From contig JAQYBD010000052.1 of NCBI GenBank assembly GCA_029338835.1, positions 1 to 32,227 on the forward strand: 32,227 bases of DNA, read 5' to 3'. The translations under genes were made by a program, and so were the position numbers. Source of the stretch: Selenomonadaceae bacterium. GTDB lineage: Bacteria > Bacillota > Negativicutes > Selenomonadales > Selenomonadaceae. Numbering within the stretch: the stretch's first letter is position 1; the number at the start of each line of letters is the position of its first letter. The notes below the pieces were generated by a model. The model worked only from the letters and a program-made list of their open reading frames with translations, was not told the origin of the DNA and ran no database searches. Shown piece by piece: positions 1 to 28,948 of this stretch.

Positions 1-26
1 AGCGTTATATCAAACGAAAGTAGCTG

Positions 27-40
27 CCTGCTTCGGCAGG
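27..40 (+). other. Small UUCG-capped hairpin
   Basis: CCTGC and GCAGG flank a TTCG tetraloop, giving a stable 5-bp stem. No T-run follows on the + strand, so it is not a convincing terminator. It may be the remains of the 3' end of a transcript starting left of the window. Nothing else recognisable was found in the first 80 bases. Confidence 0.3.
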
Positions 41-84
41 GCAAAATCGGACGCAATGAAACAGGAAGGATGTTTGTGAAGACA

Positions 85-1276: not shown

Positions 1277-1306
1277 AAACGCACAAGTTCCCGACTTGTG
1301 CGTTTT
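1277..1306 (+). terminator. Strong intrinsic terminator
   Basis: ACGCACAAGT (1279-1288) and ACTTGTGCGT (1294-1303) form a perfect stem with loop TCCCG. Two flanking A-T pairs extend it and a TTTT tract follows. The AAA on the left flank would also allow termination from the opposite direction. Confidence 0.85.
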
Positions 1307-1346
1307 CGGCATGGTCTTGCAAATGAAGCGGAAAGGAGCGGTTTTC

Positions 1347-2078
1347 ATGGGTACGGTTCTTTTGCTGATTATGGTTTTGGGTGTGGTTATTTTTGTGGCT
1401 AACCGCATATCGCCGCCAGCAAAGCAAGCGATTTCTTCCAGGCGTGCGGATGCCAGCAATCCTCCGGTGCATAAGTCTGTGGCGGGGGCAAGGCCTGCGG
1501 CACCTGCGTCTTCTTCGCTGCACCAGACTCCTTCTGGCGTGGTGCGCCCGCCTGTGCTGACGGCAGATCAGCGGCAGGCGCTGCGCGATATCCGTCGACA
1601 GCGTGCGCAGGAGCGTCAGCATGACAGCCGCATGGCGGCTGCAGCGGGGCTTGCGGGTGTGGTAGCCGGTGCGGCGCTCATGCATCATCATGACGCAGAG
1701 GCAACACAAGCCCATATCGATCAAGCGGCCGCCATGCAGCGCGATGCCCTGGCGCAGCAGGCTGATGATTATGATGATGGCGGTGCCGATATGGATTTTG
1801 ATGATACGGATTGGGACGACGATACGAATGATTGGCACGATGATGACGATGCGGATTGGTCCGAAGATGACGACGAGGACTACAGCAGCGATTCCGGGCA
1901 GGATGATGACTATGACGATTATGGCTACGGGGGATCTTCGGATTATGGCCATGACGATTACGGTTATGGCGATGATGATTATAGCGGCGGTTATGATGGC
2001 AATGATGGCTATCATGATTATGATGGCGGTGGCGGCTATGATGGCGGCGACGGAGGAGACGGCGGGGACTTCTTCTGA
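1347..2078 (+). CDS. Anchored or secreted protein with Asp/Gly/Tyr-rich C-terminus
   Basis: The product is 243 residues of unknown function. Residues 1-18 are a hydrophobic signal anchor. A Pro/Ala/Gln/Arg-rich linker follows, then a second hydrophobic Ala/Gly/Val stretch near residues 96-112 ending in three His. The last 105 or so residues are low-complexity, about 40 percent Asp, with many Gly and Tyr and repeated D-Y-G, D-D-D and G-G-D units, ending GGDFF. Such tails can bind divalent cations or stay disordered, but nothing here proves it. AAAGGAG upstream of the ATG at 1347 sets the start; upstream in-frame TTG/ATG codons lie within or just after the terminator. The GAT-rich DNA opens several other frames, which are shadows. 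Confidence 0.7.
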   Translation: MGTVLLLIMVLGVVIFVANRISPPAKQAISSRRADASNPPVHKSVAGARPAAPASSSLHQTPSGVVRPPVLTADQRQALRDIRRQRAQERQHDSRMAAAAGLAGVVAGAALMHHHDAEATQAHIDQAAAMQRDALAQQADDYDDGGADMDFDDTDWDDDTNDWHDDDDADWSEDDDEDYSSDSGQDDDYDDYGYGGSSDYGHDDYGYGDDDYSGGYDGNDGYHDYDGGGGYDGGDGGDGGDFF

Positions 2079-2130: not shown

Positions 2131-2670
2131 ATGTTTCGTGATTTGGCGCGCATGACGGCACAGCTCAAGGGGCTTCGTTATGAAGGGGCTTTGATTGGCC
2201 GGGCAATCTGGGAGCGCAGGTCCGGTGATACGGAGGGAGTTCCCCGTGTGCTGCGTGACCAGCATGGTGTGATGGAACTCATGGCGGCCGATGCCTCGGG
2301 GCGTCTGACGCTCGTGATGATGCTGGGTCATGCGGCACCCGTTCCGCCGCAGCCGTCTGAGTGCGGGCAGGAGCCGGCTGCTGTGCGGCAGCTGCGCTTG
2401 TCCGTGGTGGGAGACGTTCCTGCAAAAGTCCTTCGGCTGCGGTTTTCAGCGGAGGATGTTCACGCTTTTGTGCGGGCGGTCGGGGATACGAATCCCTTGC
2501 ATGCGGGCATGAGGCCTTTGGTGCCAGGACTGGCCATTCTTGAAGCGGCGTTGCTGCATCCGGCTCTGGCCGGAGCGACGCGTGCCGAGTTGCGTTTCCA
2601 TGGCGCTTCGTTTGCCGGAGATGAGATTGAACTCACGGTCCGGACAGCTGGTCCTCGACGTCAGGCATGA
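2131..2670 (+). CDS. MaoC-type hot-dog (dehydratase-like) protein, C-terminus probably frameshifted
   Basis: The C-terminal half carries the hydratase signature of MaoC/R-specific enoyl-CoA hydratases: FVRAVGDTNPLHAG followed by VPGLAILEAAL, then a strand pair around AELRFHGASFAGDEIELTV. In that family the Asp and His of the D-x-N-P-x-H motif activate water to hydrate trans-enoyl thioesters. The N-terminal 110 residues are not recognised. The start at 2131 follows GGGAGGAC. The open frame stops at 2668-2670, but the next frame continues with strand-like sequence (GQLVLDVRHDVAITMLAAVY), as expected for the last strands of this fold. The gene is probably truncated by a +1 slip near 2640-2655, or the sequence has an error. 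It lies just before the biotin operon but outside its promoter. Confidence 0.6.
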   Translation: MFRDLARMTAQLKGLRYEGALIGRAIWERRSGDTEGVPRVLRDQHGVMELMAADASGRLTLVMMLGHAAPVPPQPSECGQEPAAVRQLRLSVVGDVPAKVLRLRFSAEDVHAFVRAVGDTNPLHAGMRPLVPGLAILEAALLHPALAGATRAELRFHGASFAGDEIELTVRTAGPRRQA

Positions 2671-2692
2671 TGTTGCGATTACGATGCTGGCG

Positions 2693-2740
2693 GCAGTTTA
2701 TCGTCAACTTACCGATTATGGGTTGTTGACGATAAGCTGC
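2693..2740. promoter_or_regulatory. BirA-like operator: 16-bp inverted repeat over the bioY promoter
   Basis: GCAGTTTATCGTCAAC (2693-2708) and GTTGACGATAAGCTGC (2725-2740) are reverse complements except for one position, separated by 16 bp. The inner half-sites (TCGTCAACT and its partner) match the Firmicutes BirA consensus TTGTAAACC at about six of nine positions, with about 14 bp between half-sites as in known BirA sites. The right arm contains the -35 element. Occupancy should therefore block transcription. The assignment to BirA is inferred from architecture and the downstream gene. Confidence 0.65.
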
Positions 2741-2754
2741 TGCTATTTTATAAT
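2726..2754 (+). promoter_or_regulatory. Promoter of the bioY operon
   Basis: TTGACG (2726-2731), a 17-bp spacer, and a consensus TATAAT (2749-2754). The -35 lies inside the right arm of the BirA-like operator. Transcription would start near 2761, leaving a leader of about 80 bases that contains a palindrome CGCTTTGCAAAGCG (2801-2814). Confidence 0.8.
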
Positions 2755-2841
2755 AAAAAACGTGTGCAGCATTCCTGCTGACTGGATTCATGCGTTCTTC
2801 CGCTTTGCAAAGCGAGGCGCGAGAAAAGAGGTAATTTATCT

Positions 2842-3393
2842 ATGTATTCGCAATCATCTTCCTTGACCGTACGTGATATGACCAAGATGGCACTCTGTGT
2901 GGCGTTTTGCTGCGTGACGGCGTACATTTCGTTCCCGCTGCCGTTTACGCCGGGGATGGTCACGGCGCTGACGCTGGCACTCGGCGTGACGGCTTTCGTA
3001 CTGACGCCGAAGCAGACGCTGATCGCCCTGCTCATCTACACGCTGCTGGGTGTGGTGGGGTTGCCGGTCTTTGTCGGCGGCACAGCTGGACTCGGCAAGC
3101 TGTTCGGGCCGACGGGCGGCTATATCTTTGCTTGGATTGTCGTGTATCCGATCATCAGTGCGCTCAAGGGCAATCGGCCAAGCTTCAAGCGGTATGCGCT
3201 GGTCGATATCGTTATCGGCATTCCTGTGACGTATATCGGTGGCCTCATCTCGATGATGCTCGTCATGGATGTCAGCCTCGAGGCAGCGCTTGTCATGGCC
3301 GTCCTGCCGTATATCCCCGGGGATATCATGAAGTGCCTGATGGCGGCTTTCCTCGGTGCAAAGGTCAATGAAGCCGTCGAGAAATGGAGCTGA
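2842..3393 (+). CDS. bioY: BioY biotin transporter substrate-binding (S) component
   Basis: BioY is the membrane S-component that binds biotin and works with an ECF energizing module (ATPases plus EcfT), which is not in this window. The 183-residue length is typical. Hydrophobic segments cover most of the protein, and the BioY hallmark GLPVFVGGTAGLGKLFGPTGGY lies near residues 70-95. The start at 2842 follows AGAGG by about ten bases. It is the first gene after the BirA-like operator and stops eight bases before the thiolase start, so the three genes are one operon. The combination of transporter, thiolase and acyl ligase matches the biotin-repressed yhfU-yhfT-yhfS genes of Bacillus subtilis (established knowledge). 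Confidence 0.93.
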   Translation: MYSQSSSLTVRDMTKMALCVAFCCVTAYISFPLPFTPGMVTALTLALGVTAFVLTPKQTLIALLIYTLLGVVGLPVFVGGTAGLGKLFGPTGGYIFAWIVVYPIISALKGNRPSFKRYALVDIVIGIPVTYIGGLISMMLVMDVSLEAALVMAVLPYIPGDIMKCLMAAFLGAKVNEAVEKWS

Positions 3394-3400
3394 GCTTTCG

Positions 3401-4603
3401 ATGAAGGGCGAAGCGGTTTATATCCTGGGGGGGCTGCGCACGCCGATAACGCATCGTGGCGGCGCATTGGCTCATGTGCGTCCGGAAGAGCTGGGCAGCA
3501 CGGTGATCCGGGCATTGCTTGCGCGGTATGGTTTGCCCGCCAACGCGCTTTCCGGCGTGCTGGCGGGCAATGCTGTGGGGACGGGCGGCAATCTGGCGCG
3601 GTTGACGGCGCTGTTGGCGGGCATCCCGGAAGAAGTGCCGGCCTGTACGGTCGATATGCAGTGCGCTTCGGCCGCAGCAGCCATCTCGCTGGCGGCGGCA
3701 AAGCTTGCCTCTGGCCAGGGAGAGCTGTTTTTGGCGGGCGGCATGGAGAGTGCTTCGCTGCAGCCTTTGCGCATTTATGCAGAGCATGATCCGCGGTACT
3801 CTCTGGTGCCGGGAGGCGCGTACAAGACGGCACAGTTTGCACCGGGCGATGTTGCGCCGGATGCGATGCTCAAGGGGGCAGAACGCGTGATGGAGGCGGA
3901 GCAGGTGACGCGGGCGGAACTCGATGCCTTTGTACTGCGCAGCCATCACCTGGCCGGAGAGGCCGTGAAGCAGGGGCTGCTGGCTGACGTGATTGTTCCC
4001 GTGGGCGACTGCCGACGGGACAGTGGCATCCGGCCGCGCCTTTCGCAGCGCCTGCTCGACCGGCTGCTGCCGCATTTTGGCCCGGGGACGCTTCTGGATG
4101 CCGGCAATGCCTGTGCCATCCATGACGGGGCGGCATTCCTGCTGCTGGCAAATGGTGATTTCCTGCGCCGTCATTCCCTGCAGCCAGCTGCGCGCATCGT
4201 GGCGACGGCTGCAGTTGGCGGCAGGCCGGATGAGAGCCCACGCGGTGCGATGCGCACGGCCGATGTCCTGCTGCACCGCCAGGGGCTTCGTTATGAAAAT
4301 CTGGCGGCCATTGAGTTCAATGAAGCGTTTGCCGTCATCGATGTGCTGTTTGACCGCGCGCATCCAGGATGCCTGGCCCGCTATAACCGTCTTGGCGGGG
4401 CGCTTGCGTACGGCCATCCGTACGGGGCATCGGGCGCGATCATCGCTTTGCATCTGCTGCAGTCGCTGAAGCTTGCAGGCGGCGGTCTGGGCCTTTTGTC
4501 CATCGCGGGCGCCGGCGGTATGGGAGAAGCCATCTTGCTGGAACGAATGGCGGGAGGAAATGTGGTGAATCCGGATAGAGGGGAAGTGCGCGCACATGCG
4601 TGA
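3401..4603 (+). CDS. Thiolase-family protein lacking the second catalytic cysteine (YhfS-like)
   Basis: This 400-residue thiolase-superfamily protein keeps the nucleophile Cys88 (VDMQCASA), the NEAF motif at Asn307 and the GHPxGASG motif with His339. The usual C-x-G-G-G-M-G motif reads SIAGAGGMG, with Ala369 in place of the proton-shuttling Cys. Normal thiolases condense or cleave acyl-CoA units; without that Cys the chemistry may be altered, for example decarboxylating or acyl-transfer rather than reversible Claisen chemistry (inference). The ATG at 3401 gives the normal N-terminus VYILGGLRTPI; a frame extension to 3356 overlaps bioY and is unlikely. Its stop overlaps the ligase start. The operon position suggests a role tied to biotin or its pimelate precursor. 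Confidence 0.85.
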   Translation: MKGEAVYILGGLRTPITHRGGALAHVRPEELGSTVIRALLARYGLPANALSGVLAGNAVGTGGNLARLTALLAGIPEEVPACTVDMQCASAAAAISLAAAKLASGQGELFLAGGMESASLQPLRIYAEHDPRYSLVPGGAYKTAQFAPGDVAPDAMLKGAERVMEAEQVTRAELDAFVLRSHHLAGEAVKQGLLADVIVPVGDCRRDSGIRPRLSQRLLDRLLPHFGPGTLLDAGNACAIHDGAAFLLLANGDFLRRHSLQPAARIVATAAVGGRPDESPRGAMRTADVLLHRQGLRYENLAAIEFNEAFAVIDVLFDRAHPGCLARYNRLGGALAYGHPYGASGAIIALHLLQSLKLAGGGLGLLSIAGAGGMGEAILLERMAGGNVVNPDRGEVRAHA

Positions 4604-5993
4604 AAGAATCGGGAATCTTGAAAAACGCAACGTGGATGGCGAAAAAAGAGGCTTGGGGAATTATGCAGCGTTGCTTTTCTGGCAGGCTCGTCGTCAGCCG
4701 CAGAGGGAGGCTCTGGTCATCGATGATGAGAGCCTGACGTATGAGATGCTCTGGCAGCGCGTGGCCTCCATGGCCCTGGCGGCTTCTTCGCTCGGAGTGC
4801 ACGGCGATGTGCTGGTAGAGGCCGATGACTTCCTCGAACAGGCCATAGCTTTCCTGGCCCTGCAGGCCGTCGGAGTCCGTCCCATCCTGCTGCATCATGG
4901 AATGAGACCGGAAGACCTCCAGGCAATCTTGCAGGAGAATCACCTGCAGGGCATCTGGCGCTGCAGGTCGGGCGGTGTGCAGCTCTTTGATGCTTCGGGA
5001 CTGCCGGAGCAGCCGCATGAGGAGGCCGATATCCTCGGGGTGCTGAGTTCCGGTTCGACGGGGACACCGAAGGTCATGTATCGCACGTATGAGAGCTGGT
5101 CAGGCTTCTTTCCCGTGCAGGATGAGATCTTTAGCATCGATGGAGAGACCGTCTTGTTCCTGCAGGGCAGCCTGAGCTTTACGGGGAACACGAACAGCTG
5201 GCTTTCCGTGCTTTATGAAGGCGGCACGGTCGTGACGAGCCGGTTGATGCGCTGCCATGTCTGGGAAGAGCTGTTGCGCCGTCATGCGGTGGATGTGCTT
5301 TATCTCGTGCCGACGAAACTACAGCTCCTGGGGCGGGCGATGACAGCGCCGTATGATGGGCTCCGGATGCTTTTCACGGGGTCGCAGCTGCTGACGCCTG
5401 CCATGCTGCGTCGTCTGCAGCAGCTTTTTCCCGCAGGTGCGATACTGCTCTATTATGGAGCGAGCGAACTCAATTACATTACGTATGCCATCTGTGAGGA
5501 TCCGGATCGGGACAGCAGCAATCTCGGCCGGCCCTTTCCGGGCATCCGTGTGAGTGTCGGGGATGACGGCCTCATCTATGTCGACACGCCGTATCATGTG
5601 AGTGGTGCCAGGATTCCCTTTACGGTCAAGGATACAGGACATCTGAATGAAAAGGGAGAACTGATTTTTGGTGGCCGGCGTGCGGCCTGGATCAACAAAG
5701 GTGGCGTCAAGCTCAGCACTGTCCGCCTTGAACTCTTGTTGAAGGCTTTGCCGGGGGTGGCAGATGCAGTGGTCCTCCCCGTGAAGGATCGCTTGCGCGG
5801 CGATGCTGCGGCTGCGTTCCTTGTCGCGGAGAAAGGGGAAGGGGAGCAGGCAATCCGCCGGACAGTGCGCCAGTCCCTGAAACCCGTTGAAGTCCCGGAC
5901 AGCTTGATCTTTCTGCCGCAGATTCCGCTCAATGACCGAGGCAAGGTAGATCGCAATGCCCTGAGACGCCTTTTGGCGTCCGCAGGAGCGTGA
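4596..5993 (+). CDS. AMP-forming acyl-CoA ligase (YhfT-like) in the biotin operon
   Basis: The ligase would activate a carboxylate as an acyl-adenylate and pass it to CoA or a carrier. Visible motifs of the adenylate-forming family are the phosphate loop SSGSTGTPK (151-159), YYGASE (286-291), DTGHL (346-350, in place of the more common TGD), the hinge region GRRAAWINKGG (360-370) and catalytic Lys450 in NDRGKVDR. At 465 residues it is short for the family, like YhfT of Bacillus. The ATG at 4596 overlaps the thiolase stop and follows GAGGGGAAG, so translation is probably coupled. The substrate is unknown; pimelate or a related diacid is suggested only by the company of bioY and the operator. 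Confidence 0.87.
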   Translation: MRERIGNLEKRNVDGEKRGLGNYAALLFWQARRQPQREALVIDDESLTYEMLWQRVASMALAASSLGVHGDVLVEADDFLEQAIAFLALQAVGVRPILLHHGMRPEDLQAILQENHLQGIWRCRSGGVQLFDASGLPEQPHEEADILGVLSSGSTGTPKVMYRTYESWSGFFPVQDEIFSIDGETVLFLQGSLSFTGNTNSWLSVLYEGGTVVTSRLMRCHVWEELLRRHAVDVLYLVPTKLQLLGRAMTAPYDGLRMLFTGSQLLTPAMLRRLQQLFPAGAILLYYGASELNYITYAICEDPDRDSSNLGRPFPGIRVSVGDDGLIYVDTPYHVSGARIPFTVKDTGHLNEKGELIFGGRRAAWINKGGVKLSTVRLELLLKALPGVADAVVLPVKDRLRGDAAAAFLVAEKGEGEQAIRRTVRQSLKPVEVPDSLIFLPQIPLNDRGKVDRNALRRLLASAGA

Positions 5994-27182: not shown

Positions 27183-28109
27183 ATGGCGGAGGAAAGCAAA
27201 CAGTATACGGCAGACCGGGAAGGGGAGCGTCTCGATGTGTTCCTGACCCGCATGGAGCCGGAACTCTCTCGCGCGCATATCCAGAAGCTCGTTGCAGCCG
27301 GCAAGGCAGAAGTGAGCGGCAGAGTGCGCAAGTCCAACTATAAGCTGCAGGCAGGGGAACTGGTGGCGCTTACGATTCCTGCGGCACAGCCCGTCGCCAT
27401 CCTGCCGGAAGATATCCCTCTGGATGTCCTTTATGAAGATGCCGATATCATCGTCGTCAACAAGGCGCGCGGCATGGTCGTGCATCCGGCCACAGGCGTC
27501 TACTCGGGGACGCTCGTCAATGCACTCCTGTTCCATTGCCGTGACCTTTCTGGCATCAACGGCGAGATCCGGCCGGGCATCGTTCACCGGCTCGACAAGG
27601 ACACATCGGGTGTCATGGTGGCTGCCAAGAACGATGCGGCACATCTTGACCTTGCGGAGCAGATCCGCACGAAGACGGCACATCGTGTCTACCAGGCCAT
27701 TGTCTGTGGCAATATCCGTGAGGAGGCCGGCATCATCAAAGGGGATATTGGCCGTCATCCGACGGATCGCAAAAAAATGGCCATTGTCCACGAACACGGC
27801 AAACCGGCTGTGACGCACTTCCGGGTACTCGAGCGTTTCGGCGACTATACACTTGTCGAATGCCGCCTGGAGACGGGGCGTACGCATCAGATCCGCGTGC
27901 ATATGGCAAGTATCGGCCATCCGGTACTCGGTGATCCCAAATACGGGCCGCGCAAAGCCTGCCCGTTTGCCATCCGGGGACAGGCCCTGCATTCCCTGAG
28001 CTTGTCGCTCACGCATCCTGCGACGCGCGAACGCATGACCTTTACGGCGCCTCTGCCCGAAGATATGGCCAGCATCCTCAAGGTGCTGCGGTCCAAATAT
28101 AAGCGTTGA
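27183..28109 (+). CDS. RluA/RluD-family pseudouridine synthase
   Basis: The 308-residue enzyme has an N-terminal S4 domain (ERLDVFLTRMEPELSRAHIQKLVAAGKAEVSG) and a catalytic domain with HRLDKDTSGVMVAAK, the Asp being the family nucleophile. The GRTHQIRVHMASIGHPVLGDPKYG motif follows. It matches RluD/YlyB, which modifies helix 69 of 23S rRNA in relatives. The lspA-rluD-pyrR order is the same as in Bacillus. Confidence 0.95.
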   Translation: MAEESKQYTADREGERLDVFLTRMEPELSRAHIQKLVAAGKAEVSGRVRKSNYKLQAGELVALTIPAAQPVAILPEDIPLDVLYEDADIIVVNKARGMVVHPATGVYSGTLVNALLFHCRDLSGINGEIRPGIVHRLDKDTSGVMVAAKNDAAHLDLAEQIRTKTAHRVYQAIVCGNIREEAGIIKGDIGRHPTDRKKMAIVHEHGKPAVTHFRVLERFGDYTLVECRLETGRTHQIRVHMASIGHPVLGDPKYGPRKACPFAIRGQALHSLSLSLTHPATRERMTFTAPLPEDMASILKVLRSKYKR

Positions 28110-28136
28110 TGTTTTGGTACGACCAACTTTTTGTAG

Positions 28137-28706
<570 letters not shown>

Positions 28707-28785: not shown

Positions 28786-28809
28786 GATAACAACAAAGCA
28801 GAATAAGAA

Positions 28810-28948
28810 CTCATCCAGAGCAGTGGAGGGAATGGCCCAATGAAGCTGCGGCAACCATTGACGCGGTCAAAACGGTGCCAATTCCTTTAGGTTTCGTGCC
28901 TATAAGATGAGAGTACGTCAAGGCTCTCTTTTATAGAGAGCTTTTTTT
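28810..28948 (+). promoter_or_regulatory. SAM-I (S-box) riboswitch with terminator
   Basis: The aptamer runs from CTCATC (28810-28815) to GATGAG (28906-28911), which form P1. Conserved S-box core elements GTGGAGGGAATGGCCC, ATGAAG, CGGCAACC and GGTGCCAATTCC lie between. The expression platform is GCTCTCT (28923-28929) with AGAGAGC (28935-28941) and seven Ts. With SAM bound, the terminator should form and reduce metK expression. Confidence 0.97.

Follow-up and report, generated by a model that had tools for sequence, protein, structure and literature searches.

The bioY locus

The window analysed here, a stretch of 32,227 nucleotides of forward-strand DNA, carries bioY followed by genes for a thiolase and an acyl-CoA ligase, an arrangement that is a yhfUST-type operon. 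The features at the locus, in order along the window, are the following.

2131-2670, + strand: unannotated MaoC-like, putatively double-hotdog protein of 179 aa, directly upstream of the operator
2693-2740, no strand assigned: inverted repeat, arms and spacer
2703-2730, no strand assigned: predicted BirA operator core GTCAAC-N16-GTTGAC, kept in relatives and found also at bioB and ecfA
2726-2731, + strand: -35 TTGACG, inside the right arm
2749-2754, + strand: -10 TATAAT, after a 17-bp spacer
2842-3393, + strand: bioY, BioY-family ECF S-component (PF02632, E 1.1e-31)
3401-4603, + strand: thiolase, yhfS-type, second gene of the operon (TIGR01930, Thiolase_N/C)
4596-5993, + strand: acyl-CoA ligase/AMP-binding enzyme, yhfT-type, third gene (PF00501/PF13193; NF005797 below cut-off)

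By comparison of BioY, which shares 86% identity with its counterparts in Mitsuokella multacida DSM 20544 and M. jalaludinii DSM 13811, the source genome is a Mitsuokella (Selenomonadaceae, Negativicutes). The substrate of BioY need not be biotin and may by analogy be a related vitamin precursor, since YhfU of B. subtilis, which belongs to the same operon type, is reported to be a pantothenate-related transporter and has been renamed PanU (PMC11487621).

The original prediction described a 16-bp inverted repeat with one mismatch that covers the -35 of a TTGACG-N17-TATAAT promoter directly before bioY. Both repeat and promoter were confirmed. The arms, GCAGTTTATCGTCAAC (2693-2708) and GTTGACGATAAGCTGC (2725-2740), are 16 bp each with one mismatch and a 16-bp spacer, and no second repeat of that quality (arm 16, at most one mismatch, loop 3-30) occurs in the window; under the same settings a comparable repeat was absent from all eight Markov-randomised windows. 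The exact pattern TCGTCAAC-N10..20-GTTGACGA has a single occurrence genome-wide. The promoter, with an 11/12 match, is the sole sigma-70-like match across 2400-3000. As for the overlap, the right arm contains the whole -35 hexamer, whereas the left arm lies upstream of it.

Conservation of the box upstream of bioY

Across the genome of the window and its relatives, 42 of 61 bioY loci have an exact GTNAAC-N14..19-GTTNAC core within 450 bp upstream, against a mean of 0.13 in shuffles, a contrast to be read with the pattern having been partly tuned on this family and the related genomes being non-independent. A second, partly overlapping set of 59 named bioY loci has the exact core within 320 bp in 32, with a 16-bp spacer in 25 of these. 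M. multacida and M. jalaludinii have the box at the same place before bioY. The repeat core is thus conserved in close relatives, and the outcome that would have told against the original prediction, non-conservation upstream of bioY, did not occur.

Among the 32 operators, position 3 of the left half-site is variable (T 15, A 10, C 4, G 3) and the right half-site is nearly fixed (GTTGAC in 28). The window's GTCAAC is one variant of this common GTNAAC core, at the usual spacing, so the proposal of a lineage-specific version of the operator is not supported: the site is an ordinary predicted BirA site of standard type rather than a lineage oddity. The outer GCAG/CTGC extension, which had been called unusual, is present here; the outer TTATC/GCAG arms, however, are not kept even in M. 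multacida or M. jalaludinii. Outer arm positions 1-10 are complementary in just 5 to 14 of the 32 operators, and since the arms are not conserved in the other Mitsuokella or elsewhere they are probably incidental.

The box is not always close to bioY. Several of the loci without a core within 320 bp, for example those of Veillonella and Pectinatus, have one extra gene that separates the box from bioY and so places box and promoter about 630-700 bp 5' of bioY. No exact box was found within about 760 bp of bioY in 11 of 29 relatives with an HTH-bearing ligase, in some of them because the box is less strict or the operon begins at a greater distance.

Boxes at other biotin genes

A loose pattern search of the window's own genome returned six dyads, a count attainable by chance alone, and therefore it is position that counts. 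Further copies at other biotin genes, which the original prediction had named as support, were found. Upstream of bioB (27327-28217, - strand) there are two abutting boxes, at C77:28336-28364 and 28366-28393; in the orientation of bioB, a TATAAT that lies within the second copy comes 17 bp after GTTGAC, the right half of the upstream copy, and the boxes are interleaved with the -35 and -10. The bioB box recurs in at least 10 relatives, namely M. multacida, M. jalaludinii and at least eight others. In relatives the box is also found upstream of a bioW-like gene that follows an S-component gene, and upstream of a bioA-like gene; these names come from reading of the sequence and were not assigned by family search. 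For bioA, the window's own genome gave sub-threshold matches only. A one-mismatch copy precedes ecfA1.

Three further dyads were set aside. That on C70 is located in a hairpin between genes. That on C50 lies between a promoter and an O-acetylhomoserine-type gene and has a different spacing. The exact core at C106:8623-8650, at the start of meaB, has no -10 and is absent from the other meaB loci examined, and was judged to be probably a chance match; the cluster around it encodes methylmalonyl-CoA mutase/epimerase/decarboxylase and represents a biotin-dependent pathway.

The biotin protein ligase

The genome has one biotin protein ligase gene, whose product carries an N-terminal HTH_11 domain (E 4.5e-17) together with catalytic and C-terminal domains and is alignable over its length to the BirA proteins of S. 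aureus and E. coli. With its N-terminal HTH it is classed from sequence as a group II ligase, and the alternative outcome that had been set against the original prediction, a BirA lacking a DNA-binding domain, did not occur. Of the 36 ligases examined, 32 have the HTH; three are without it (G013, G019, G042) and one is interrupted by a contig end. The bioY box is found in none of the three HTH-less genomes, one of which has just 244 bp of upstream sequence, against 18 of 29 HTH-bearing genomes (Fisher p 0.07, non-significant), an association in the expected direction from too few genomes for a conclusion.

Identity of the operator

The claim of a BirA operator on the bioY promoter gains support from the family-wide conservation at bioY, from the copies at bioB and ecfA and from the HTH of BirA. 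The half-sites are GTNAAC-related with about 15-18 bp between cores; the site is placed on the promoter of a biotin gene and kept in relatives; the same genome has a tandem pair at bioB and a one-mismatch copy at ecfA1, and a single BirA with an N-terminal HTH. We consider it very probable that the repeat, together with its promoter, serves as a BirA-controlled operator for the bioY-yhfS-yhfT-type operon of this Mitsuokella species.

A dyad by itself does not name its protein, and some other dyad-binding repressor (GntR, TetR or similar, for example BioR- or BioQ-like) might be proposed in place of BirA, the more so as two further GTNAAC...GTTNAC dyads stand at non-biotin genes, the O-acetylhomoserine-type enzyme gene and meaB. 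We regard this as improbable. The core, the spacing and the targets (bioY and bioB, and bioW-like and bioA-like genes in relatives) match BirA regulons, an HTH-bearing BirA is present, and the meaB site is neither conserved nor accompanied by a -10. A second reading would have the repeat act as RNA, as a hairpin attenuator or terminator in a leader, and its long near-perfect arms could indeed pair as a single strand. Lying at and upstream of the -35, however, the arms would not be transcribed from the bioY promoter; no terminator was called at the repeat, an Rfam search gave no family at the bioY operator locus and the outer arms are not conserved, so that this reading is very improbable.

Three BirA systems offer the nearest comparisons. 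B. subtilis yhfUTS (also yuiG and bioWAFDBI) has the same operon type, an HTH BirA and a 5' dyad, and binding of BirA to yhfUTS and to bioO has been demonstrated there and requires both biotin and ATP (PMC4016012). In the predicted operator of the window, by contrast, the half-site is GTCAAC with its right half coincident with the -35. S. aureus BirA, the closest solved BirA by sequence, controls biotin synthesis (bioO), bioY and yhfS-yhfT, as is predicted here, although the S. aureus bioY is reported to be a unit apart from yhfS-yhfT (PMC6391492), whereas in the window they form one operon. The E. coli bioO, of TTGTAAACC type, likewise has two half-sites on a promoter, and the E. coli ones are bound by a holo-BirA dimer. 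The operator of the window differs from it in having C and not A at position 3 of the half-site, no inner CC/GG flank and a shorter spacer. Between E. coli and B. subtilis, too, BirA operators differ in sequence and spacing (PMC4016012).

By analogy to the biochemistry of the E. coli, B. subtilis and S. aureus proteins, we infer BirA binding, ligand dependence and repression at bioY. On loading with biotinyl-5'-AMP, BirA would form a dimer whose two winged helices each contact one of the GTCAAC half-sites, the centres of which are 22 bp apart. Most of the -35 falls within the right half-site, so that RNA polymerase would be kept off the bioY promoter while BirA is bound. When biotin is scarce the ligand would be consumed, BirA would leave and the strong promoter would fire. 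These results document a predicted BirA regulon for a lineage whose gene regulation has been little studied.

Half-site and -35

Two layouts of operator and -35 were distinguished among 40 operators. In the first, that of the window, the right half-site is the -35, and all 27 such operators read GTTGAC. In the second, a separate TTGAC stands 6 bp before the right half (TTGACGTTGAC); the 13 operators of this kind are found in a sub-clade of mostly rumen Selenomonadaceae. A GTTTAC right half occurs in four of these 13 and in none of the 27 (Fisher p 0.008, indicative only, as the genomes are related). That the conserved element might be the promoter alone, with the dyad a by-product of its TTGAC -35, would fit the 27 coincident operators, but a left half GTNAAC at 15-18 bp is conserved too and the right half is retained 6 bp downstream of the -35 in the 13 sub-clade cases, which leaves this reading scarcely any probability. 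Since the right half is retained apart from the -35 in the second layout, the comparison shows a predicted operator dyad selected independently of the -35. Most simply read, the promoter would fix the sequence of any half-site that coincides with the -35, which suggests how such a repressor half-site comes to be tied to that sequence.

Predicted control of the ECF motor genes

The EcfA1-EcfA2-EcfT motor is common to all ECF vitamin transporters. In the genome of the window (C85) a one-mismatch box, ATTGTCAAC-N16-CTTGACAAT, stands before a TATAAT about 150 bp 5' of ecfA1, and the box of ecfA1-ecfA2-ecfT is positioned just after a ribosomal operon. An exact box at ecfA1 is present in five of 31 genomes (M. 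multacida, M. jalaludinii, G008, G022 and G050; 0.04 in shuffles), and one-mismatch boxes occur in the relatives G009, G016 and G023; most relatives have no box at ecfA1. All three Mitsuokella, along with some relatives, have such a predicted BirA box ahead of the shared motor genes, and for the genus we treat it as a good prediction rather than as established. A literature search, with RegPrecise and subscription papers outside its scope, did not find BirA control of EcfAA'T/ecfA1-ecfA2-ecfT.

We see about an even chance that BirA acts as a repressor of ecfA1-ecfA2-ecfT as well as of bioY and bioB in Mitsuokella and some other Negativicutes. If this is true, uptake capacity for several vitamins at once would be set by biotin status, and the box before the motor genes is a testable extension of a known circuit.

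The MaoC-like open reading frame

The ORF at 2131-2670 is homologous to the extra gene that separates the box from bioY in Veillonella, Pectinatus and others. In those genera the homologue lies within the boxed operon, whereas in Mitsuokella the box stands between the ORF and bioY. The protein has no Pfam or NCBIfam match. Profile support for the resemblance is weak (1iq6, E 0.007). Of 15 family members, two match the MaoC family, with E 0.007 as the lowest value. The 15 homologues share an invariant D-x-N-x-x-H (D119, N121, H124), the motif expected of the catalytic Asp/His in a MaoC-like hydratase, and a P-G pair. The AlphaFold model has a pLDDT of 90, and the structures that it matches best are those of MaoC-type 2-enoyl-CoA hydratase 2 (1s9c, E 4.6e-4, TM only about 0.5), so that a hotdog fold is likely. 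A putative hydratase, a thiolase and an acyl-CoA ligase under predicted BirA control suggest a small acyl-CoA pathway, possibly leading towards a precursor of biotin or of CoA. This raises the question of whether biotin status controls both the ECF motor and a MaoC-like enzyme near yhfS-yhfT.

Elsewhere in the window, the ORF at 1296-2078 (+ strand) encodes a long acidic tail of Asp/Gly/Tyr-rich repeats and has no informative family match. An RAGATH-18 RNA family match at 1-67 (+ strand) is interrupted by the window start, and a SAM riboswitch (S box leader) lies at 28808-28913 (+ strand).
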